Positions 5,803 through 32,402 of a stretch of DNA of 64,000 nt are shown here, piece by piece. The stretch comes from Longibacter salinarum. Lineage in GTDB: Bacteria; Bacteroidota; Rhodothermia; Rhodothermales; Salinibacteraceae. The stretch's first letter is position 1. Every line of letters starts with the position of its first letter. The stretch covers positions 124,001 to 188,000 of the forward strand of contig NZ_PDEQ01000005.1 of the NCBI RefSeq assembly GCF_002554795.1, in the 5' to 3' direction. Below the pieces are notes generated by a model, which had not been told where the DNA came from, made no database searches, and saw only the letters and a program-made list of their open reading frames with translations. Made by a program: the position numbers and the translations under genes.

Positions 5803-6252
5803 TCAGGCGTGAGATTCAGGCAGCGAGACGTGCGTCTGCACCAGCTTCCAGTCGCCTCCGCGCTTTTCGAGAACGCCGGTAAACCGGGCGCCCTTCCACA
5901 CCTGCGTCCCAGAGGCCGAGTCGATCTCCGCATCCAGCAAGTGCGAATACCACGCGGTGTCCCCGTTCTCAGATGTGTGAATGGCTAACCGCCGGATCGT
6001 CGCCTCGTACCGCTGCAGGCCGTCGAATTGCTCGATCGTGTCAGCGTGTAGGTGCTCCCACCCACGCCAGATCTCGCCAACATCGGTGCCGATATGCACC
6101 ATATGCGGGTCGTGCGCGGTGATCTCCACCATCTGCTCAAGATCCTGGCGGTTCATCGCATCGAAAAACTTCCGGATCGTCGAACGAACACCACGCACCG
6201 CATCGTCAGGCGCGTTCGTTTCGATCATAGATTCTACGGTCGGAGACGACAT
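5803..6252 (-). CDS. SnoaL-like / nuclear transport factor 2 fold protein
   Basis: A 149-residue protein of the NTF2-like superfamily (SnoaL_3 type). The pattern IRKFFDAMNRQDLEQMVEITAHDPHMVHIGTD is the classical opening helix pair plus first strand of this fold, and the ending GARFTGVLEKRGGDWKLVQTHVS is the usual last two strands. These domains act as small-molecule-binding or association modules and occasionally as enzymes. No catalytic residues can be assigned, and no signal peptide is present. It is transcribed in the same direction as the lipoprotein gene that follows, with a gap of about 105 bases. Confidence 0.8.
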   Translation of the reverse strand: MSSPTVESMIETNAPDDAVRGVRSTIRKFFDAMNRQDLEQMVEITAHDPHMVHIGTDVGEIWRGWEHLHADTIEQFDGLQRYEATIRRLAIHTSENGDTAWYSHLLDAEIDSASGTQVWKGARFTGVLEKRGGDWKLVQTHVSLPESHA

Positions 6253-6328
6253 TGAGAATTAGAATCGATTCGCGTTTGCGTTCGGGTGCTATCGCTCATC
6301 TACATGCTGAACGCCGATCCGTTCGCCG

Positions 6329-7762
6329 TTAGCCAGATCCGACATCATAGCGCCCGTAGCCGTTTTCCTTCGCCTGTTGCACAGCCTGCGTGTACATCTC
6401 CTGTGCCCGGCGGTAGGCCGTACCGTGATCGACGATCGGCGGAGGGTAGTCGGCGGCCTGGGTCGAATAGTCGATAGGCTCGCCCGCGGTCAGCAGATCC
6501 GGCGACACGTCCCGAAGCTCCGGCACCCATGTTCGCACGTACTCAGCTCCTTTGTCGTACTTCTCGACCTGCGTGTACGGGTTGAACATGCGCATCGGGA
6601 TCGAATCCAGCCCCACGGACGCGGACCACTGCCAGTTGCCGTTGTTGACGGCAGGATCGTAGTCGAGAAGGTGCCGGGCGAAGAACCGCTCCCCGCGCCG
6701 CCAGTCGATCAGGAGGTGCTTCGTCAGGAACGACGCCACCGCCATACGTGCCCGGTTGTGCATGTACCCAGTGGTGACCATTTCGCGGATCCCGGCATCC
6801 ACAATTGGCACACCCGTCCGCCCCTCACACCACCGCTCCCAGGCGTTGTCGTCATTGCGCCAGTCGATAAAGCGATCCTTCGGGCGAATGGCCTGACCAA
6901 AGACCGATGGGAAGTGATAGGCAAAGTGCGTGTAGAAATCCCGCCAGAGGAGTTGGCTGTTGAGCTTGTGCCGTGCGCCCCACTCGCGTCGGACGGCATG
7001 GTACATCTCTCGTGGCGAGATCGTCCCGAACTTGAGGGCGGCCGAACACATCGTTGCCTGCCCGTAATCGTCCATCCGGTGGCGCTTCTTTGAGTAGTAG
7101 CGAAATTCGCCCATCCGGCCGATCATGTCGAGCGCCTCCTCGCGGCCACCGCTTACCTTTAGCTCCGGATTGGGCGTCGGCCGGAAGGCATCGATGGATA
7201 CGGTGTCGAGGGAGCCGTCGCGCGTCTCCCAGTGCGGTGCTTCAACAGCCACGGGTGTCGGGATGCTAACCTTCCGCGCCGCTTTTCGGAAATGACTGTA
7301 GACGAAAAACGGATCGCCATCGCGGGTGAGGACGTCCTCCGGCTCGGTGAGCAGAACGTTTGACTCCGCATGAAACGCAACGCCGTGCTCATGCGCTACA
7401 TTTTCTAGTGCGGCATCACGTTGTCGGGCGAACGGCGTGTAGTCGCGGCTGACATAGACGGCGTCGATCGTTCCACTTAGCAACAGACGCTTGAGCACGT
7501 GCTCCGCTTCCCCCTCAAACACGTACAGCCGCCCACCCCGGTCCTCCAGTTCACGCTCAAGGTCAGCGAGTGCGTGGATGAGCACCCGGAAAGCGTTCGG
7601 TGAGAAATAGCTGTTGGCGTCTTCGCTCGTCTGTCGTGGATCGAAAACGAATGCCGGAACGATGCTGCGCGAGGCCATGCACGCGGCCTGTAGCGCTCGG
7701 TTGTCGTGGAGCCGAAGGTCCCGCCGGAAGAGAAAGAGGCTGCGGCGGTAACGAAGAGACAT
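6329..7762 (-). CDS. phr: Deoxyribodipyrimidine photolyase (cryptochrome/photolyase family)
   Basis: Light-dependent repair of cyclobutane pyrimidine dimers. 477 residues from the ATG at 7762: an antenna-binding Rossmann domain opening SLFLFRRDLRLHDNRAL, then the FAD-binding helical domain with the family blocks WRDFYTHFAYHFP, GRTGVPIVDAGIREM, GYMHNRARMAVASFLTKHLL, DWRRGERFF and NNGNWQWSASVG. The last of these includes the Trp/Asn residues conserved in CPD photolyases. Length is normal for the family. The reading frame is open well upstream of 7762, but that portion overlaps the divergent folC region and has no conserved sequence. Photolyase fits a sunlit hypersaline or marine surface habitat. 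Confidence 0.95.
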   Translation of the reverse strand: MSLRYRRSLFLFRRDLRLHDNRALQAACMASRSIVPAFVFDPRQTSEDANSYFSPNAFRVLIHALADLERELEDRGGRLYVFEGEAEHVLKRLLLSGTIDAVYVSRDYTPFARQRDAALENVAHEHGVAFHAESNVLLTEPEDVLTRDGDPFFVYSHFRKAARKVSIPTPVAVEAPHWETRDGSLDTVSIDAFRPTPNPELKVSGGREEALDMIGRMGEFRYYSKKRHRMDDYGQATMCSAALKFGTISPREMYHAVRREWGARHKLNSQLLWRDFYTHFAYHFPSVFGQAIRPKDRFIDWRNDDNAWERWCEGRTGVPIVDAGIREMVTTGYMHNRARMAVASFLTKHLLIDWRRGERFFARHLLDYDPAVNNGNWQWSASVGLDSIPMRMFNPYTQVEKYDKGAEYVRTWVPELRDVSPDLLTAGEPIDYSTQAADYPPPIVDHGTAYRRAQEMYTQAVQQAKENGYGRYDVGSG

Positions 7763-7939
7763 GGCGAAGTTGGAATCAACCGGTGCGACGATGGTCTCTG
7801 CCCTACGGCAGCAAGGCTCGTCCGGTTTATCCAGGACCTGCAATCTTCCCGTCCGATTTCCGCATGAGTGGCGCGAACCGTCACGCGCAGCGTGGGTTTT
7901 CACGACCCATCTTGCCCTCACGAAGCCACCCGTTGTCGC

Positions 7940-9238
7940 ATGTCCAGCGGTATCGACCGACTTCACGCGCTGCCGCGTTTCAGCGGTGAGGCTGACGCCA
8001 GCTTCAAGCCCGGCCTTGAGCGCATGCACGCGCTGCTCGACGCGATGGGCAATCCCGAGGAAGCGTTCCCCAGCATCCATGTTGCGGGAACGAATGGCAA
8101 GGGCTCAACGGCCTCGATGATAGCGGCCATTGCATCCACCTCGGATCGCCGGGTCGGCCTGCACACGTCGCCAGAGCTAACCCACGTCACAGAGCTCATG
8201 CGCGTGAACGGCCGGCCGGCAGCGGAGACATGGCTCGACGAGGCGGTGCATCGCCATTCTCACGTGATCGACCATGTACAGCCCAGTTTCTTTGAGGCGA
8301 CCGTCGCGTTCAGCTTTCTGTATTTCGCAGAACAGGCGGTCGATCTTGCGGTCGTGGAGGTAGGACTCGGTGGGCGACTCGATGCCACCAACGTGCTGGA
8401 CTCGACGGCCAGCGTCATCACGAGTATTGACCTCGAGCACACGAACCTGCTCGGCGACACGCTGTCAGCGATCGCGCGGGAAAAAGCGGGGATCATCAAG
8501 CCAGGGCGGCCCTGTGTCACCGGGGTGACGCAGGACGAGGCGCTAATAACGATCCGCGCCGTCGCCGCAGAGCTGGGCGCGGCGGTCCACGTGCTGGATG
8601 AGGAAGGCACGATCAGGATCCACCACGGCGGCGTGCAGGAATCGCCCATGATCGATCTCCGCACCCCCGACCGTTTGTACGAACGCTTGACGCCGTCCCT
8701 TCCGGGTGCGCACCAGTTTCGAAACGCGTGGCTAGCGGTTCGGGCTCTTGAAGTCGCCGGCATGGACATCAGTCCGAAAGCAGTTCGAGAAGGGCTTGCG
8801 CATCTCGCGGACCGGTCCGGCCTGCGCGGACGGATGGAGGTTCTGTCGCGTCGGCCGCTTGTCATCGCCGATGTCGCCCACAATCCGTCGAGCCTCGCCG
8901 CCACGCTCACAGCCATCGGGCCGTCTGTTGATGGTCAGCTCTACGTCGGGCTCGCCCTCGCCCGAGACAAAGACGCCGGGGCAATCGCACAGCTTCTAAC
9001 TGATCGGGATGCAACCATTATCCCGCTCCAGATCGACGCGTCTCGGCTCCGTTCTGCCGACGCCCTGACGGACGTTCTGCGGCACGCTGGCGCACGCATC
9101 GTGGCACCCCAAACCGTGGAGGGCGCCCGGCGTCAATTCGAGCGGGATGCCCACCATGACGATGCGCTGCTGCTCACGGGATCGCATCACGTCGTACGCG
9201 AAGCCATTGAAGCCGAGGGGGCCATCGCCCCCTCGTGA
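7940..9238 (+). CDS. folC: Folylpolyglutamate synthase / dihydrofolate synthase
   Basis: Adds glutamate to folates (and possibly makes dihydrofolate) in the cytoplasm. 432 residues from the ATG at 7940, where the family opening (GIDRLHALPRFSG...KPGLERMHALLDAMGNPE) begins. Mur-ligase-type ATPase features are visible: P-loop HVAGTNGKGSTA (about residue 47), LHTSPEL, the Mg-binding VEVGLGGRLDATNV block and TSIDLEHTNLLGDT, then IAREKAGIIKPG and the C-terminal ligase domain with DVAHNPSS. It is divergent from the photolyase gene with a gap of about 180 bases. The last codons form a strong GC hairpin overlapping the stop. Confidence 0.93.
   Translation: MSSGIDRLHALPRFSGEADASFKPGLERMHALLDAMGNPEEAFPSIHVAGTNGKGSTASMIAAIASTSDRRVGLHTSPELTHVTELMRVNGRPAAETWLDEAVHRHSHVIDHVQPSFFEATVAFSFLYFAEQAVDLAVVEVGLGGRLDATNVLDSTASVITSIDLEHTNLLGDTLSAIAREKAGIIKPGRPCVTGVTQDEALITIRAVAAELGAAVHVLDEEGTIRIHHGGVQESPMIDLRTPDRLYERLTPSLPGAHQFRNAWLAVRALEVAGMDISPKAVREGLAHLADRSGLRGRMEVLSRRPLVIADVAHNPSSLAATLTAIGPSVDGQLYVGLALARDKDAGAIAQLLTDRDATIIPLQIDASRLRSADALTDVLRHAGARIVAPQTVEGARRQFERDAHHDDALLLTGSHHVVREAIEAEGAIAPS
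9214..9235 (+). other. Hairpin overlapping the folC stop codon
   Basis: Perfect 9-bp stem CGAGGGGGC (9214-9222) / GCCCCCTCG (9227-9235) with a CATC loop, ending one base before the TGA at 9236-9238. No U-tract follows, so it is not a classical terminator. It may protect the mRNA 3' end. Confidence 0.5.
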
Positions 9239-9403
9239 TGCGTCACCTTGCAGTCAGGACGGTCGCGACGCCCCTCCTTCCTCAAGAGCCAGAATTCCAA
9301 AGACACAATTACACTTCTTTTCGAGCGGACGCGATATCTTAACCATGCGTCCCGTATCGCGGCGCCCGTCTCTTTCCATATTTAGACGTTCTTCCGTTCC
9401 CTT

Positions 9404-10627
9404 ATGCTGTTTCCAGACGACGACGCGTCCGCGCCATCCGCTTCGCCGCGCATTCTGCTTTTTACAGGGAAAGGTGGCGTAGGCAAGACCACCTGTGCCG
9501 CGGCCACGGCCCTCCGCGCTGCCCGGGACGGGCACAAGACCCTCATCCTCAGCTCCGACCCTGCGCACAGCCTCGCGGATGCTGTCGATGAACCGCTCGG
9601 GCCCGAGCCGACGGAAATCGTCGAGAACCTCTTCGCCCAAGAGGTCGACCTGTACTACTCGATGAAGAAGTACTGGGGAAACATGCGCGAGCTCATGCTC
9701 ACAGTTTTCCGCTGGCAGGGCGTCGAGCAAGTCGCGGCGGAGGAACTGGCGGCCCTGCCAGGCATGAACGAAGGCTCCGTCCTACTATGGCTCGAACAGG
9801 CTATCCGCGAAGAAGACTTCGACCTTATCATCGTCGATAGCGCGCCGACGGGCGAGACGCTCACGCTCCTCACGCTTCCGCAGGTCACGCAGTGGTGGCT
9901 GTCGAAAGCCTTTCCTTTCCAGAAACTCGCCGTCAAATCGCTGGGATTTGGCGTTCGAAAGACAACCGGTATTCCGCTCGACAAGGGTTACGAAGAGCTG
10001 GAGCGGATTTTTGAAAAGCTCGAGACCGTGCGCGCGGTCCTTTCCGACCACGCAATCACCTCGATTCGCCTGGTTATGAATCCCGAGAAAATGGTCATTG
10101 CAGAGGCGCGCCGGGCGTACACGTATCTTCAGTTGTACGGCTACGGTGTGGATAGCGTCATCGTGAACCGCGTGCTGCCGGAAGATCAGATTCCCGAGAA
10201 CTCGCTCTTTTCTGGATACCTGGCCTCGCAGCGCCAGTACATGCGCGATATCGAAAACAGCTTCGCTCCCTTGCCCATACTCACGGTGCCCCACCTCGGC
10301 GAAGAAGTGTTCGGGCTCGAGCGATTGACGCGCATCGCGAACGGCATGTACGAAGACAACGACCCGGTCGCCGTGCTGCACGACGAACCAACGTACGAGG
10401 TTCAGGAGTCGGGCGCCGGATACAAAATCCGCATTCGGCTGCCGTTCGTCGACGAGCAGGAGGTCGAGGCTCGTCAGTTTGGGGATCAACTCGTGGTTCA
10501 GGTCGCTAATCAACGGCGGAATTACGCTTTGCCCAATTTTTTAAGTTATTATACCGTTCGCGACACGACCTTAGCCGACGGTTGGCTCACGGTCCATTTC
10601 GATGAGGACGACCGCGAAGCCGCGTAG
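9404..10627 (+). CDS. Get3/ArsA-family ATPase with C-terminal alpha-crystallin-like domain
   Basis: A 407-residue SIMIBI-class ATPase. The deviant Walker A LLFTGKGGVGKTT lies near residue 20; switch motifs DPAHSLAD and IIVDSAPTGETLTLL follow, and the nucleotide-base region LVMNPEKMVIAEARRAYTYL is intact. After about residue 325 there is a separate all-beta segment (YKIRIRLPFVDEQEVE ... LVVQVANQRRNYALP) that resembles the ArsA_HSP20/alpha-crystallin-like domain known from Get3d-type proteins of plants and cyanobacteria. The CxxC zinc dimerisation motif of eukaryotic Get3 is not seen. It may handle hydrophobic clients rather than arsenite: no ars genes are nearby. The HMG-CoA reductase gene starts 63 bases downstream, suggesting co-transcription. 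Confidence 0.88.
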   Translation: MLFPDDDASAPSASPRILLFTGKGGVGKTTCAAATALRAARDGHKTLILSSDPAHSLADAVDEPLGPEPTEIVENLFAQEVDLYYSMKKYWGNMRELMLTVFRWQGVEQVAAEELAALPGMNEGSVLLWLEQAIREEDFDLIIVDSAPTGETLTLLTLPQVTQWWLSKAFPFQKLAVKSLGFGVRKTTGIPLDKGYEELERIFEKLETVRAVLSDHAITSIRLVMNPEKMVIAEARRAYTYLQLYGYGVDSVIVNRVLPEDQIPENSLFSGYLASQRQYMRDIENSFAPLPILTVPHLGEEVFGLERLTRIANGMYEDNDPVAVLHDEPTYEVQESGAGYKIRIRLPFVDEQEVEARQFGDQLVVQVANQRRNYALPNFLSYYTVRDTTLADGWLTVHFDEDDREAA

Positions 10628-10690
10628 TGGCGATCGCGCCCTTTCCGTTTCTCGCATACTCTCCTCTTTGCGTCTCAAGCATATCCAACT

Positions 10691-12238
10691 ATGTTCGTCC
10701 CTTCTGTGCTGCTGAAGCAGCTTTACACATTCGGCAGCCTCGAGAATACCGACCGAGGCGTTCAGTTCTCAATCAAAAACCGGCTCAAAGACGCCACGTT
10801 AACAGAACTGATCAGCGTTTCCATTAACGGGGATCCGGTACCCTCCGATCAGCTGGAGCTGTATCTAGGCGATGGCGAAGTGTATACGCCCGAAACCATC
10901 AGCAAGGACAATCCGGTCGATTTTCCTCTGCGCCGGAGCCTTCATGTTCGCACCCGGAGTATTTCGCATCTGGAGATCGGTAAGCACCAGATCGAGATCT
11001 CCTTCCGGGCGAAGCCCTTCGGCAAGCTGAACTTCAAGGTTGAGGATGCCATTACCGAGGAGGAAGACGAGATCATCCGGATTCCGCGCGATGAACAGGA
11101 TGACTACAGTGAGGCGGCCATCGAGCGGCGTCAGAAATGGATCGAGGAACGGACGGGACAGGAACTGAAGCACACGCCGGTCTACTCAATTGACCCGAAG
11201 ACGGCAAGGGGCAACTGCGAACACTTCACTGGGGTGTCGCAGATTCCGCTCGGCATTGCCGGGCCGCTAACCGTGAACGGCGAGCACGCAGGGGGCGACT
11301 ACGTCATCCCACTGGCCACAACCGAAGGAACGCTTGTTGCGTCGTACAACCGCGGCATCAAGGTGTGCAACCTCGCCGGCGGCGTGAAGGCAACGGTGGT
11401 GAACGACGCCATGCAACGCGCGCCCGTGTTCGTCTTCCGAGATGCCCGCGAGGCCCGCGACTTCACCCACTGGGTCAACGACAACATCGACACGATCCGC
11501 GAGGAGGCGGAATCCACGTCGAGCGTCGCGAAACTGATCTACATCGACAACTACCTGTCGAACCGGTTCGCGTACCTCCGTTTCAATTACAAAACGGGCG
11601 ACGCAGCCGGACAGAACATGGTCGGGCGGGCGACCTTCGCCGCGTGCGGGTGGATCATCGACCACTACCCGGAGCCAATCCAGCACTTCTACCTCGAATC
11701 GAACTTTGCGACCGACAAGAAGGCATCGCAGGTCAACGTCATGCGCACACGAGGCAAGCGCGTGACGGCCGAAGCCACGATTCCGCGTAAGGTGCTCGTT
11801 CAACACATGCGTGTCGAACCTGAAAGCTTGCACTACCACTGGAACGTAGCAACCGTCGGGGCCTTCCTCTCCGGTGCAAACAATAACGGCGCCCACTCGC
11901 CCAACGCGATCACGGCGATGTTCATCGCGACCGGGCAGGACGTGGCCAACGTCTCGGAGTCGTCCGCGGCCGTCCTCTACACGGAGATTACGGAAGAAGG
12001 CGACCTGTACATTTCGCTCACGATCCCGTCGCTCATCGTTGCTACGTACGGCGGCGGCACCGGCCTCGCTACGCAGCGCGAGTGCCTGGAGATGATGGAC
12101 TGCTACGGAAAAGGCAAGGTGAATAAGTTCGCAGAGATCGTCGCGAGCGTCGCCCTGGCCGGCGAGTTGAGCCTGGGCTCGGCGATCTCGTCCTCTGACT
12201 GGGTCTCCTCGCACGAAACCTACGGGCGAAACCGGTAG
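10691..12238 (+). CDS. Class I 3-hydroxy-3-methylglutaryl-CoA reductase with N-terminal extension
   Basis: Reduces HMG-CoA to mevalonate, the committed step of the mevalonate route to isoprenoids. 515 residues. The catalytic set is visible: Glu in TTEGTLVAS (about 212), Lys in TDKKAS (about 343), Asp in ATGQDVANVSESSA (about 417), and the late His in SSHETYGRNR (about 508), the arrangement of class I NADPH enzymes. Before the reductase core lies an extra stretch of about 130 residues rich in beta-strand pattern and then acidic residues; it is not a membrane anchor and I do not recognise it. Most Bacteroidota use the MEP pathway, so a mevalonate enzyme here suggests transferred or lineage-specific isoprenoid supply. 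Confidence 0.93.
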   Translation: MFVPSVLLKQLYTFGSLENTDRGVQFSIKNRLKDATLTELISVSINGDPVPSDQLELYLGDGEVYTPETISKDNPVDFPLRRSLHVRTRSISHLEIGKHQIEISFRAKPFGKLNFKVEDAITEEEDEIIRIPRDEQDDYSEAAIERRQKWIEERTGQELKHTPVYSIDPKTARGNCEHFTGVSQIPLGIAGPLTVNGEHAGGDYVIPLATTEGTLVASYNRGIKVCNLAGGVKATVVNDAMQRAPVFVFRDAREARDFTHWVNDNIDTIREEAESTSSVAKLIYIDNYLSNRFAYLRFNYKTGDAAGQNMVGRATFAACGWIIDHYPEPIQHFYLESNFATDKKASQVNVMRTRGKRVTAEATIPRKVLVQHMRVEPESLHYHWNVATVGAFLSGANNNGAHSPNAITAMFIATGQDVANVSESSAAVLYTEITEEGDLYISLTIPSLIVATYGGGTGLATQRECLEMMDCYGKGKVNKFAEIVASVALAGELSLGSAISSSDWVSSHETYGRNR

Positions 12239-28004: not shown

Positions 28005-28982
28005 TTACGCTGCCTTCTGTGCCAGTAGACGGACCTGCTGCTCAATTGCATCCACGACTTCTGACACCCGATCGAGTCCGTCGGGATAGATGCACGCGTA
28101 CGCCGGCACCGTTCGAACGAGCGTAGCTAGCGCCTCCTGCCGTTGCGCGGACAGTCCGAGAGCATGGATCGACTGAGGCAGAAACGAATGCCGAATGCAC
28201 TCCATGATGGCTTCTGTGGGGGAAAGACGACGGAAGGCCACGTCCTGTGCGTCCGGACCTCGCTCCGGTATAAGCAATGCACGTAGCGGGACGGGATCGG
28301 ACTGAAACGTGCCAAATCCATCGACCCCGACGGGCACCCGCCGCTTGTCAAGATGAGGCACGACGCGCGGGAGGTCTGCCTCTCCAACCCAGCGCTGTAC
28401 CTGATCCGACCAGAGGCGCATCTGCGGATAGCCCGGCTGCGCCACCGGTCCGCTGGCACTCGTCGTGACAGCCAGAATGTCGTCCGTGAGCAACGGGTGC
28501 CCCCGCTCCATCATGGCGGCCGCCAGCGTGCTCTTCCCGGACTGACTTGTCGCAAGCATGCCAATGCCCGCCCCGTCCACGCTGACGCTCGCTGCATGCA
28601 GGGCCAACACCCCGCGCCGCTCCAGCCAGATCGCGAGCACGGGACCGAACAGCCAGACCTCGAGCGCGTCCGTCAGGTGCGGCTTCTTGAGATGACACGC
28701 GATCGTCTCCCGCCCGATGTAAATATCGGCCGCGCTGGCAAACCGAAGCACGGCGATGTCCGCGATGTCATCGTTCAGAAAAATCGCATCCGCCAGTCCG
28801 TCTTCGCCCTGTGACTCGATGTGTACTGGGCGTGCTCCGTCCCAGAAGTCGGGACGTGGAGACTCATCGACGACGCGGATACGAACGTCTGGAGCCCCAC
28901 TGGCTCGTGAAAGCGAGAACCGAAACGGATACGTCGATTCCAGCGTGATGCCATACGCCCGATAGATGGATGGAGAGGTCAC
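28005..28982 (-). CDS. HPr-kinase-like protein, predicted lasso-peptide kinase
   Basis: 325 residues, GTG start whose last two bases overlap the TGA of the preceding gene, so translation is coupled. The C-terminal half has the HPrK P-loop fold: LHAASV, Walker A GMLATSQSGKST (about 141-152) and the acidic LLTDDIL (about 164-170). The N-terminal half is the variable region seen in HPrK homologues of RiPP clusters rather than the HPrK_N domain of carbon regulation. Homologues in paeninodin-type lasso clusters phosphorylate the side chain of the C-terminal Ser of the precursor; the precursor 1.3 kb upstream ends in Ser. No HPr gene is near. Role inferred from family plus context. Confidence 0.82.
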   Translation of the reverse strand: MTSPSIYRAYGITLESTYPFRFSLSRASGAPDVRIRVVDESPRPDFWDGARPVHIESQGEDGLADAIFLNDDIADIAVLRFASAADIYIGRETIACHLKKPHLTDALEVWLFGPVLAIWLERRGVLALHAASVSVDGAGIGMLATSQSGKSTLAAAMMERGHPLLTDDILAVTTSASGPVAQPGYPQMRLWSDQVQRWVGEADLPRVVPHLDKRRVPVGVDGFGTFQSDPVPLRALLIPERGPDAQDVAFRRLSPTEAIMECIRHSFLPQSIHALGLSAQRQEALATLVRTVPAYACIYPDGLDRVSEVVDAIEQQVRLLAQKAA

Positions 28983-30193
28983 GAAACCGAAGCGTGATCG
29001 AAAGGGGCGGACGAAGACGAATGCTGCAAGACGTCGAACCGGACCAGTTCACCGATGAATTGTCGGGTATCGTCACGGAGCGACGCGGGAGACACGCTCG
29101 GAAACGAATCGGCAAGCCGTTCAATGGCCTCGTCGATGGACGACGCCTCCCAGAGCGCCTGCCAGAACATTGCGGAGCTGCCCGACATCGACATACACAC
29201 GCCCGACCGCGTGCTTGCAATGATCCACTTGGAATCGACCTCTGCGACGAACGTATGGGGACCGAGTGCACAGCCGGCGGTGGTTTCGGGCTGACGAAAG
29301 ACCGGCGGACGTGTTTCTGGGTTGGTGGCGTGACGGTTCTTGAGGCATGATGACGGCGAAACGACCGGCAGGCCACGCATGACCCGACCAAGCTCCTCGT
29401 CCCACACGCCGACATCGGGCTCGCTCCAGGCAAATGCCACGTGCTCGGGAACCCCCGTCCAGTACCGCTCCACCGGCCGGTTCTCCCAGCGATTTCGATA
29501 CGTACCAGCGTGATCACCCCAGCGCTCATCGGTGAAATCCTGCACGTCGCGCGCTCGGATGCACGCCCGCATCGCTGAATCCGTTTCTACCGCATCACAC
29601 AGAGCAGGCGTCGCATAAAGTGCGGCCACAACGAGATCGCGTCGGGACGCATTGTTCGTCACGAAGCGGTTTCGCTGTGCTCGAATCCGTGCACCGGTGA
29701 TGACACAATCGTCCACGATGACAAGCGGGTGTCCGTCGCTCGTTGCTTCCACGTCCCGCAGATCGATGATTTGATTGGGTCGCAGACCCAGCGCGTAGCT
29801 CAGCATGCCAAGCACGATCATTCCACCGCGCGGCAATCCGGCAAATCGCGCCTGCTCTAGGTCGGCACCGAGTCGATTCGACAGGTTCGCTGCCAGCACC
29901 TCGCAGTCTGTCTCCGCCTGCTGGTAGTCAACGTACCGAAGGTCGCGGACAGTCGACGGAACCTGGCGGACGAGCGCCTCCAGCCGGGATGCATCGGTAT
30001 CGTTCAGAAATCCGAGCATCGCGACCCGGCGGTCCGGCCTGGGTCGCACAACACACGCCATCGGAGGAAACGAAGACCACGCCGGACTTGTGACCATTCC
30101 TTCAGCCACGCGCATGACCCGTTCCGGGTCTGCGCCAGCAGCCTCTATCGGTATCTCAGTAACCACGCAGCGGGGCCGAAGGGGAGAAGACAT
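28979..30193 (-). CDS. Phosphoribosyltransferase-like / PqqD-RRE-like fusion in a lasso-peptide cluster
   Basis: 404 residues with two recognisable halves. Residues about 85-200 look like a type I phosphoribosyltransferase: FAGLPRGGMIVLGMLSYALGL (PRGG at 121-124) and the PRPP loop VIVDDCVITGARI (158-170), including the paired Asp residues. Residues about 300-392 look like a PqqD/RiPP-recognition element: a short beta start (FVAEVDSKWIIASTRSG) and then helices (MFWQALWEASSIDEAIERLADSF). In lasso systems the RRE binds the precursor leader and is usually a stand-alone B1 or fused to the B2 peptidase. Fusion to a PRTase-like domain is new to me and suggests PRPP-dependent modification of the peptide. 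It could also be a degenerate, purely structural PRTase fold. Confidence 0.75.
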   Translation of the reverse strand: MSSPLRPRCVVTEIPIEAAGADPERVMRVAEGMVTSPAWSSFPPMACVVRPRPDRRVAMLGFLNDTDASRLEALVRQVPSTVRDLRYVDYQQAETDCEVLAANLSNRLGADLEQARFAGLPRGGMIVLGMLSYALGLRPNQIIDLRDVEATSDGHPLVIVDDCVITGARIRAQRNRFVTNNASRRDLVVAALYATPALCDAVETDSAMRACIRARDVQDFTDERWGDHAGTYRNRWENRPVERYWTGVPEHVAFAWSEPDVGVWDEELGRVMRGLPVVSPSSCLKNRHATNPETRPPVFRQPETTAGCALGPHTFVAEVDSKWIIASTRSGVCMSMSGSSAMFWQALWEASSIDEAIERLADSFPSVSPASLRDDTRQFIGELVRFDVLQHSSSSAPFDHASVS

Positions 30194-30300: not shown

Positions 30301-30465
30301 CTAACTCTGGTTCCCCCAGCAGTTTGCGTTCATACTTGATCCGCGTAGGTCATCTCCATACACCTGACAGTCACTACCGGGATTGGTGCGTCCCGCGGCT
30401 GTCAGGTCGGCCACCGTTCCATGCACTTTTAGGCGTGGCGACTCATATTTTTTGGAGTCTTTCAT
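30301..30465 (-). CDS. Lasso peptide precursor (54 residues)
   Basis: A short gene, ATG at 30465, stop TAG at 30303-30301. Its ATG overlaps the TGA of the cyclase gene (ATGA), so it is translationally coupled. Residues 7-22 read YESPRLKVHGTVADLT, an exact fit to the lasso leader pattern Y-xx-P-x-L-xxx-G-xxxxx-T that RRE domains bind. Using the conserved Thr at position -2, the core starts at Ala24 with AGRTNPGSD, so Asp32 is core residue 9 and can close a 9-residue Ala1-Asp9 macrolactam. The core is 31 residues, has Cys at core positions 10 and 26 (a possible disulfide), and ends GNQS. A C-terminal Ser suits the HPrK-like kinase in the cluster. An 8-membered ring from Gly25 is the alternative. 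Confidence 0.9.
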   Translation of the reverse strand: MKDSKKYESPRLKVHGTVADLTAAGRTNPGSDCQVYGDDLRGSSMNANCWGNQS

Positions 30466-32402
30466 AACGTCGTTGTGTGTCTATGAGAAAAACTTGGCCG
30501 GGACTTGTCATCTGAAGCGTGAGCACAGTGTTGCCGCAGCCATCGCTCAAGTACCAGCGTATACCAGAACCGGTGATCGTTTTGCCGACCCTCCCGGAAC
30601 TCATCGTAATACGCACGCAGACGATGGACATCGATAAAGCCCAGGTCGCGTAGCCTTGGACCCTTTAATAACGCGGCGACATGTTCTTTCTCCGTCATCC
30701 TTAGCGCACGGAGAAACAGTGCTTCCGGATATATCTTCTGCGCTCGCACACCGGGCATCATCTCCTCAAAGGCCGCTCGAGCAACAGATTTATTCTCCCC
30801 ACCACGGCAGATTACCGACGGTGGAACGGCCATAACCCATTCGAACAGCCGTCGGTCGCTCCACGGATCGGCCGACGCAAGTCCCTCACGGACTGCATCA
30901 AAGTTATTGCGTGTCCCGCCTCGCATGTGCCCCCCGAGCGTAGCCAGTTCGTACCGCTCGCGGCGAACACCGCTCAGTCCGATCGGAATGTGCGAGGACG
31001 AACCAGACGGCGCCGGGTAGTGACGCAGAGCATCGGTCGCCCAGGGCGGACAATCGACTCGCGGTACGGGCGAATCTTCCGGTGAACGCAAGCCGCTCGC
31101 TCGAAGCCAACGACCGACTCTGACACGTAGTGGCCCGATGACTTGCTCACGCACGACATCACGCAACGGCCGATTCTCCCGCTCCGCATGCTGGAGAAGC
31201 TCGCTCACCAGACGGTACCATTGTCCCGACCCCAACAGGCCGAGATAGTCGAATAGCCGGCCGCCCACCATCAGATCGCCATGATGCCCGCTCATCAGCG
31301 TGCAGCACGAGTCACGCGCCGCCAGCTCGTATCCCCTGAGTAGAAGGTGATGAAACCCGGAGACGTACGGCTCCTCCAGGTTGGGCTCCGGGTCGCGACG
31401 GACGAGCGGTACGGAATCAACGTCAATGAGCGTCGACGAAAATCCGTACCGGCAAACGATTTCGTCGCTGACGAACCGCTCATCACACACGGGCAGCGTC
31501 GGGAAGTCGAACGAATACGTTCGGAGTGGCGCGACCGAAACGCCTTGCTCATCAAGCCAACCGGCCGTCACGGCGATAGCGGTTGAATCTACACCGCCAC
31601 TCAGCAGCAGGCCGACCGGGTCGGGCGTTTGCAATCGACAGCGAACCGCCTCGGCAAACAGTTCGCGGAAATGCTCGACGTACTCCTCGTCCCGCCGATA
31701 GCGAATTCTTTGGCCGGGGTCAATGTCCCAGACCCGGCGCACGGCCGACGATCCCGGCGATGCAATGAGAGCATGCGCCGGAGGCACGGCGTGGATGCCC
31801 TCAATGAACGTGTGCGAGGGATGCTCGAAGTCGCCAGCCAGATATGCGGCAATAGCAGGCTCGTGCAGGTCGCTCGACACGCCGGGGACCGCCGTGATCG
31901 CCCCAACCTCGGATGCTAGCAGGAGTCGATCGCCGTCCTGCCGGTAGTACAGGCCGCGCATGGCCATCGGGTCGCGGGCCGCAAAGAGCCGGCGTCGGGC
32001 TGGATCCCAGACCGCGAAGGCAAAGTCGCCAATCAGGTGCTCGAGGCAAGCCGTGCCCCATCGTCGAAATGCCGCGGCGATCAGGTCCGTGTCCGATGCG
32101 TCGGGACGCAGATCATTAGCCAGTATATGCTCCAGATCCTCACGGTTGTCGATTCTCGCATCGGCCACGACGATCAGGCCCCCACGCCGCGACGCATCAC
32201 CGTGCTTTCTAATCCTGCGCTCTTTCGTCGCGTGATCCGCGTGCGTGACGTGCAGGTCGAATTGCACGAGAGCTGCGTCCGCGTCCATCGAAGCCTGCAC
32301 GCCATCCGGTCCTCGGTGCGCGAGCGCTGAGACCATTGCCTGTGCCGCGTCCGGCGCCCCGGGGCGACGATCGAAGTGAATGCAGGCACAGAGGCCTCCC
32401 AT
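30462..32402 (-). CDS. Lasso peptide cyclase (asparagine-synthetase-like, C protein)
   Basis: 646 residues with both parts of glutamine-dependent asparagine synthetase: an N-terminal glutaminase-like domain (about 1-210, with HRGPDG and IGDFAFAVWD) and a C-terminal ATP-pyrophosphatase domain whose PPi loop LLLSGGVDST is at about 266-274. The protein begins MGGLCAC, so the nucleophilic Cys2 of active glutaminases is replaced by Gly and ammonia cannot be made. That loss is common in lasso cyclases, which use the synthetase domain to adenylate an Asp/Glu side chain and join it to the core's N-terminus. The lasso precursor gene starts in overlap with its stop. Without that context it would be called a degenerate AsnB. 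Confidence 0.88.
   Translation of the reverse strand: MGGLCACIHFDRRPGAPDAAQAMVSALAHRGPDGVQASMDADAALVQFDLHVTHADHATKERRIRKHGDASRRGGLIVVADARIDNREDLEHILANDLRPDASDTDLIAAAFRRWGTACLEHLIGDFAFAVWDPARRRLFAARDPMAMRGLYYRQDGDRLLLASEVGAITAVPGVSSDLHEPAIAAYLAGDFEHPSHTFIEGIHAVPPAHALIASPGSSAVRRVWDIDPGQRIRYRRDEEYVEHFRELFAEAVRCRLQTPDPVGLLLSGGVDSTAIAVTAGWLDEQGVSVAPLRTYSFDFPTLPVCDERFVSDEIVCRYGFSSTLIDVDSVPLVRRDPEPNLEEPYVSGFHHLLLRGYELAARDSCCTLMSGHHGDLMVGGRLFDYLGLLGSGQWYRLVSELLQHAERENRPLRDVVREQVIGPLRVRVGRWLRASGLRSPEDSPVPRVDCPPWATDALRHYPAPSGSSSHIPIGLSGVRRERYELATLGGHMRGGTRNNFDAVREGLASADPWSDRRLFEWVMAVPPSVICRGGENKSVARAAFEEMMPGVRAQKIYPEALFLRALRMTEKEHVAALLKGPRLRDLGFIDVHRLRAYYDEFREGRQNDHRFWYTLVLERWLRQHCAHASDDKSRPSFSHRHTTTL

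Follow-up and report, generated by a model that had tools for sequence, protein, structure and literature searches.

A phosphoribosyltransferase fused to a lasso-type leader-binding domain: a candidate tailoring module in a lasso peptide operon of Longibacter salinarum

What does a phosphoribosyltransferase (PRTase) do when its gene stands among lasso peptide genes and its chain carries a leader-binding domain (RRE) of its own? The gene that raises this question lies at 28979..30193 on the reverse strand of the window, that is, the whole 64-kb stretch of Longibacter salinarum DNA that was analysed. It encodes a PRTase-RRE fusion protein of 404 aa with an ATG start and no internal stop, and is present in a single copy in the 4.4-Mb genome (99.8% complete). 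We propose that the protein performs leader-guided, PRPP-dependent tailoring of the precursor peptide and works with a kinase, no particular acceptor being specified; we put the probability of this reading at about 0.57.

The gene order in the operon is cyclase C, precursor A, PRTase-RRE, kinase. The product of the first gene (30462..32402, reverse strand, 646 aa) was recognised with NCBIfam and Pfam as an asparagine synthetase-like macrolactam synthetase, that is, the lasso cyclase C. Its best family is lass_lactam_cya (NF033535, E 7.7e-97, below the 525-bit cut-off of the model), and its Pfam domains are Asn_synthase and GATase_7. The start codon of the precursor gene (30301..30465, reverse strand) overlaps the cyclase stop codon (ATGA). 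The 54-aa precursor A, recognised from its sequence and leader motif, reads MKDSKKYESPRLKVHGTVADLTA followed, after the predicted cleavage site, by AGRTNPGSDCQVYGDDLRGSSMNANCWGNQS. It has the features of a lasso precursor: the leader motif YxxPxLxxxGxxxxLT with Thr at position −2, and YESPRLKVHGTVADLTA followed by a core that begins AGRTNPGSD and has Asp at position 9. The ring is predicted to join Ala1 and Asp9. The core is long (31 aa) and contains two Cys; a disulfide may form in the lasso tail. The last gene (28005..28982, reverse strand) encodes an HprK-like tailoring kinase of 325 aa; 4 bases are shared between its start and the stop of the PRTase-RRE gene. It was assigned by Pfam Hpr_kinase_C (E 4.9e-6) and NCBIfam HprK_rel_A (E 1.7e-10), scoring below the cut-off of the former and the equivalog cut-off of the latter. 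The kinase keeps the P-loop and LLTDD, and GK[ST] and DD are found in all kinases of the family loci that cover these positions.

The fusion protein consists of a PRTase domain (residues 84–290; 29324..29944, reverse strand), with the hood motif FAWSEPD at residues 254–260, and a PqqD-like RRE of the lasso B1 type (residues about 301–395; 29009..29293, reverse strand), which was assigned by profile comparison with the PDB, VIA-align and a local RRE HMM. Pfam identifies PqqD at residues 323–385 above the cut-off (E 1.6e-7), and PqqD also passes the cut-off in all eight relatives having the RRE domain among the nine scanned. The best Pfam match for the PRTase part, PRTase-CE (PF24390), covers residues 115–197 yet stays under its 27-bit cut-off (24.7 bits, E 2.5e-5). 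For the nine relatives PRTase-CE or Pribosyltran scores are low or absent; PRTase-CE scores at all in five of the ten proteins and is below the curated cut-off in every member scanned. Hence no curated model reaches its threshold on the PRTase part of this family. The NCBIfam scan of the fusion protein likewise gave no model at its cut-off.

An AlphaFold2 model of the window protein was built with eight relatives (mean pLDDT 71). The Chloroflexota relative L013 yielded a better model with the same two domains (mean pLDDT 84). In VIA-align comparisons residues 82–286 of the window model matched type I PRTases, the best being HGXPRT 5bqp (Z 12.5, rmsd 3.2, 128 aligned positions), while residues 306–398 matched TbiB1 5v1u (Z 12.4, rmsd 2.0 over 86 residues) and TfuB1 6jx3 (Z 12.1). 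The Z-scores of the L013 model were 11.4 for HGXPRT and 11.2 for TbiB1. With both models the closest folds to the PRTase domain are 6-oxopurine PRTases. The hood, the part that determines the acceptor, has the lowest certainty within the window model (pLDDT 38–51). A sequence search of the PRTase part alone against the PDB gave nothing meaningful, and the fold was recognised from structure and from profile comparison with Gpt. The sequence-only reading of this DNA had suggested a PRTase-like N-terminal part and a leader-recognition-like C-terminal part, each to be checked by structure prediction; both suggestions held, the former as a type I PRTase fold with the PRPP site kept and the latter as a lasso B1-type RRE fold.

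The loops on which that reading relied, PRGG (residues 121–124) and the PRPP loop VIVDDCVITGARI (residues 158–170), are present in the open reading frame, and the family shows no variation at their key residues. P121, R122, G123 and G124, as well as D161, D162, G167 and R169, are kept in every relative that covers them, in several phyla, and all relatives covering the PRPP loop share the pattern DDxx[LIF][ST]GxR. Alignment of the family profile with E. coli Gpt by hhalign (E 3.3e-4, probability 38%) places the two loops on the PPi loop (SRGG) and the PRPP loop (DDLVDTGGT) of Gpt. The domain thus has the fold, the PPi loop and the 13-residue PRPP motif of a type I PRTase. With the 6-oxopurine PRTases (E. 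coli Gpt/XPRT, S. solfataricus HGXPRT) it shares the core fold, the PPi loop RGG and the PRPP loop DDxxxTG, but it differs from them in a longer hood, an extra N-terminal region, the fused RRE and the replacement of Asp92 and Lys115, which we take to be the general base of XPRT and the residue contacting the purine at O6, respectively. Ile165 stands at the Asp92 position (L/I/F in the family) and the Lys115 position is variable (T/H/P), so that both hallmarks of 6-oxopurine PRTases, the catalytic Asp in DDxxDTG and the purine-binding Lys, are missing. The loss of these key residues lowered the standing of the protein as a candidate purine salvage enzyme. In the hood, a new motif, F-x-W-[NSG]-E-P-[DE]-x3-W, is near-invariant in the family. 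On the simplest reading of the active site, PRPP binding would have been kept and the acceptor changed.

Two other readings of the PRTase domain have to be weighed here. It might act on a free base or another small molecule, e.g. making a nucleotide for the NTase or the ABC exporter of the pathway, with the RRE serving only as an anchor. The similarity to 6-oxopurine PRTases and the NTase genes of some clusters (L017, L053 and L054) would agree with such a role; we regard it as quite improbable, given that the base-recognition residues differ from those of XPRT, that the equivalent positions vary in the family, and that no NTase is found in the stretch examined at L004, L013, L015 and L052. 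PRTase folds are also sometimes regulators or non-catalytic binders, as in PyrR and PurR, and PyrR structures are among the VIA-align matches to the domain. In combination with the loss of the purine-specific Asp and Lys of XPRT, this leaves some room for a PyrR/PurR-like sensor of PRPP or nucleotides, or a scaffold, linking lasso maturation or the kinase to the nucleotide state. We hold this to be doubtful: the residues for PRPP and Mg (PRGG, DD, [ST]G) show no exchanges in several phyla and W-x-E-P-[DE] of the hood is nearly invariant, a pattern that suits catalysis, and the fused RRE speaks for a peptide as the substrate.

The RRE itself resembles those of lasso pathways. A ten-member sequence profile searched against the PDB matched TbiB1 with E 5e-13 and PqqD of PQQ synthesis only with E 0.2; therefore the domain is assigned to the lasso B1 type. 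The local RRE HMM, the training set of which included the window sequence, scores the fused RRE at E 3e-34. The sequence-only reading needs the correction that this domain is not the B1 of the pathway: a full-profile search found at least one further RRE outside the fusion in eight of nine PRTase genomes, as a rule no more than about 5 kb away on the contig of the fusion; most of these genomes have a standalone B1, usually in the same cluster, and the genome of the window has its own on another contig. With a separate B1 present, ordinary lasso formation does not need the fused RRE. A tree of 25 RREs placed the 14 fused ones together, as opposed to the 11 standalone ones, with 89/90 support and 87% of bootstraps, slightly below the usual threshold; the domain is short, and none of 500 shuffles gave a value as low. 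The identity of the fused RRE with the B1 of the pathway was rejected on both grounds; the domain is an additional RRE, and its grouping fits a separate task and a single event of fusion with the PRTase. It shares the RRE fold with TbiB1 and TfuB1/FusB1 (Z about 12), and the neighbouring precursor has the same kind of leader motif; whereas lasso B1 proteins are standalone and serve B2 and C, the window RRE is a PRTase-fused extra copy falling in a group of its own. By analogy with B1, the fused RRE presumably binds the YxxPxL leader of the precursor.

The same fusion was found at 14 loci in several phyla. The searches comprised a single-sequence search of 394 genomes of the window's phylum, followed by PRTase-domain profile searches of about 1,450 genomes from five phyla; the latter yielded five further loci, two from the L011 phylum, one from the L014 phylum and two from the window's family. 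One close relative from this family, in genome G195, is 38% identical to the window protein. Nine relatives come from GTDB genomes: two from Gemmatimonadetes, two from Chloroflexota, one each from Nitrospirae and Holophagales, and three from short contigs labelled Methanospirillaceae, Rhodobacteraceae and unclassified bacterium, labels that may be binning errors. The family is rare and widely scattered, with a dozen or so loci among roughly 1,800 genomes; no relative was found in the plasmid and viral collections. This rarity is what might be expected of a chance fusion or an annotation artefact with no biological meaning. Such an origin is hardly credible, being refuted by relatives that share domain order and gene order across distant phyla at 28–43% identity with intact motifs. 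In one further genome of the window's family a decayed remnant of the PRTase gene retains only the hood motif (L055, 8299-8505, reverse strand), suggesting a recent loss.

Wherever the contig reaches, the fusion gene adjoins a lasso precursor, cyclase, B2, B1 or kinase gene, and a frequent order is B1-B2-C-A-[PRTase-RRE]-K; at L011 and L051 a cyclase follows the kinase. The earlier reading called for a search of other genomes for the domain pair, which would tell whether it occurs away from RiPP genes: none of the 14 loci does so, and a PRTase of this type away from RiPP genes was not found in the sampled phyla under a loose first filter. The picture of a PRTase in a lasso cluster thus stands, but it lacked the HprK-like kinase, the pairing with which is strict and usually translationally coupled. 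At each of the 13 loci where the contig extends far enough, the kinase gene follows immediately; in most cases its start codon overlaps the stop codon of the PRTase gene or is no more than about 35 bases away.

This pairing can be interpreted in another way, namely that the fusion serves the kinase, its RRE presenting the leader to the HprK-like enzyme and its PRTase domain supplying or adjusting a phosphate donor or cofactor, so that it leaves the peptide itself unmodified. The invariable position of the kinase gene would agree with this, as would the finding that no RRE match was seen within the kinases of the family loci. We nevertheless consider it unlikely, as kinases such as PadeK, ThcoK and PsmK work with no such partner (PMC9266682), and a second locus in the same genome (L020) has a cyclase, a kinase and a precursor without the PRTase.

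HprK-like tailoring kinases are known from paeninodin-like clusters (PadeK, ThcoK), and in pseudomycoidin biosynthesis the terminal Ser is phosphorylated by PsmK and subsequently, by way of PsmN, receives one or two hexoses (PMC9266682, a review). These clusters share with the present system the cyclase C, split B1/B2, a Y/WxxP-type leader and the HprK-like kinase, and in pseudomycoidin, comparably to the PRTase-RRE and kinase pair, a second enzyme adds a sugar after the kinase. In contrast to them, the window operon has a PRTase-RRE between precursor and kinase; PsmN is an annotated nucleotidyltransferase that adds hexose and is not described as RRE-fused. No precedent for a lasso or RiPP cluster with a PRTase was found in the open-access literature or in the searched family libraries. 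Open-access searches on PRTase-CE and conflict-system PRTases returned unrelated papers only, and two reviews covering lasso modifications do not mention ribosylation. As far as its genes can tell, the window operon is most likely a lasso cluster with a new tailoring module, one undescribed in the open literature searched.

We favour leader-guided tailoring by the fusion protein because one chain combines a PRTase of the type I fold with an RRE of the lasso B1 type, because PRGG and DDxx[LIF][ST]GxR are kept across several phyla, because the fusion adjoins lasso genes with the kinase next to it, because the fused RREs group apart from standalone B1s, because a separate B1 leaves the fused RRE free of a part in ordinary lasso formation, and because a kinase combined with a sugar-adding enzyme has a lasso precedent in PsmK/PsmN. 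Such tailoring might proceed as follows. The C-terminal RRE would grip the YxxPxL leader and hold the peptide at the PRTase domain, which, judging from its conserved loops, would bind Mg-PRPP and move the 5-phosphoribosyl group to the core peptide. In the likeliest order the HprK-like kinase would act first, phosphorylating a hydroxyl residue in the manner of PadeK and PsmK, whereupon the PRTase would glycosylate that phosphate or a nearby side chain. Removal of the leader by B2/B1 and ring closure by C would take place as in other lasso pathways, here with B1 and B2 supplied from another contig.

Known cellular PRPP acceptors are bases, ammonia, quinolinate, prenyl phosphates and a few sugars. 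Decaprenyl-phosphate phosphoribosyltransferase moves phosphoribose onto a phosphate group, and O-phosphoribosylation occurs in aminoglycosides such as butirosin; we know of no PRPP-dependent modification of a ribosomal peptide, and the open-access literature yielded none. A more specific relay can be suggested only tentatively: the kinase would phosphorylate the precursor and the RRE-guided PRTase add 5-phosphoribose from PRPP onto this phosphate or a neighbouring residue, giving a ribosyl-phosphate-decorated (lasso) peptide, with linear RiPPs as further possible substrates, and making the protein the first PRPP-dependent peptide tailoring enzyme. If true, the lasso and RiPP toolbox would gain new chemistry from a PRTase fold equipped with a leader-binding module of its own, part of the role of the widespread HprK-like kinases would be explained, and the modular RRE might make the activity portable to other peptides bearing the leader.

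The cores themselves counsel caution in naming the acceptor. The window's core ends in Ser, the known HprK target, but most relatives' cores do not, which counts against naming it. Soon after the ring acid, many cores have a Gly-Ser/Thr step; it was dropped as a shared acceptor motif of kinase and PRTase, given that the core of the kinase-only locus L020 has Gly-Thr too.

Neither B2 nor B1 was found in the 64-kb window. The sole Transglut_core3 match (B2) of the genome is on contig C3, together with the standalone B1, in an orphan half-cluster (L005; C3:429000-448900, 6222-10303, forward strand) composed of an ABC exporter, an NTase, B2 and B1, with no cyclase or precursor beside B2/B1. L020, on contig C6 (C6:203000-222000, 8175-11625, forward strand), has the precursor MDNKKSKSYEPPRLSELGRVEDITAAGQNGYCLDDSFQAGTPFDDLTFSVCS. 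The lasso machinery of Longibacter salinarum therefore seems to be split over three loci, and the L005 genes presumably serve the cyclases on contigs C5 and C6 in trans.

One relative bears on how closely the module is tied to lasso formation. Its cluster, L017 (1398-6745, forward strand), has in this order an RRE, a precursor, a PRTase without a fused RRE, a kinase, an NTase and an ABC transporter. A cyclase search of this MAG, which may be incomplete, gave no match, and neither Asp nor Glu is available for ring closure in the short predicted core, NNNQNGTIPK, which has a single hydroxyl residue. If the absence of a cyclase is real, it suggests that a linear peptide can be a substrate of PRTase and kinase and that lasso formation is not required; the tie of the module to lasso formation may therefore not be a strict one. 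The same gene set occurs in clusters for linear polyphosphorylated peptides (LPPs), which have an RRE, an HprK kinase, an NTase, an ABC exporter and a YxxP leader but no cyclase (PMC13381572). LPPs differ in having an SpI-like peptidase, and no PRTase is mentioned for them (PMC13381572), whereas L017 has its unfused PRTase.

Two lasso clusters lie head to tail in another genome of the window's family (L004, 194-11774, forward strand). The first has the order RRE-C-A-K and is followed by an ABC gene, a 2OG-Fe(II) oxygenase (6158-6865), B2, C, A, PRTase-RRE and K.
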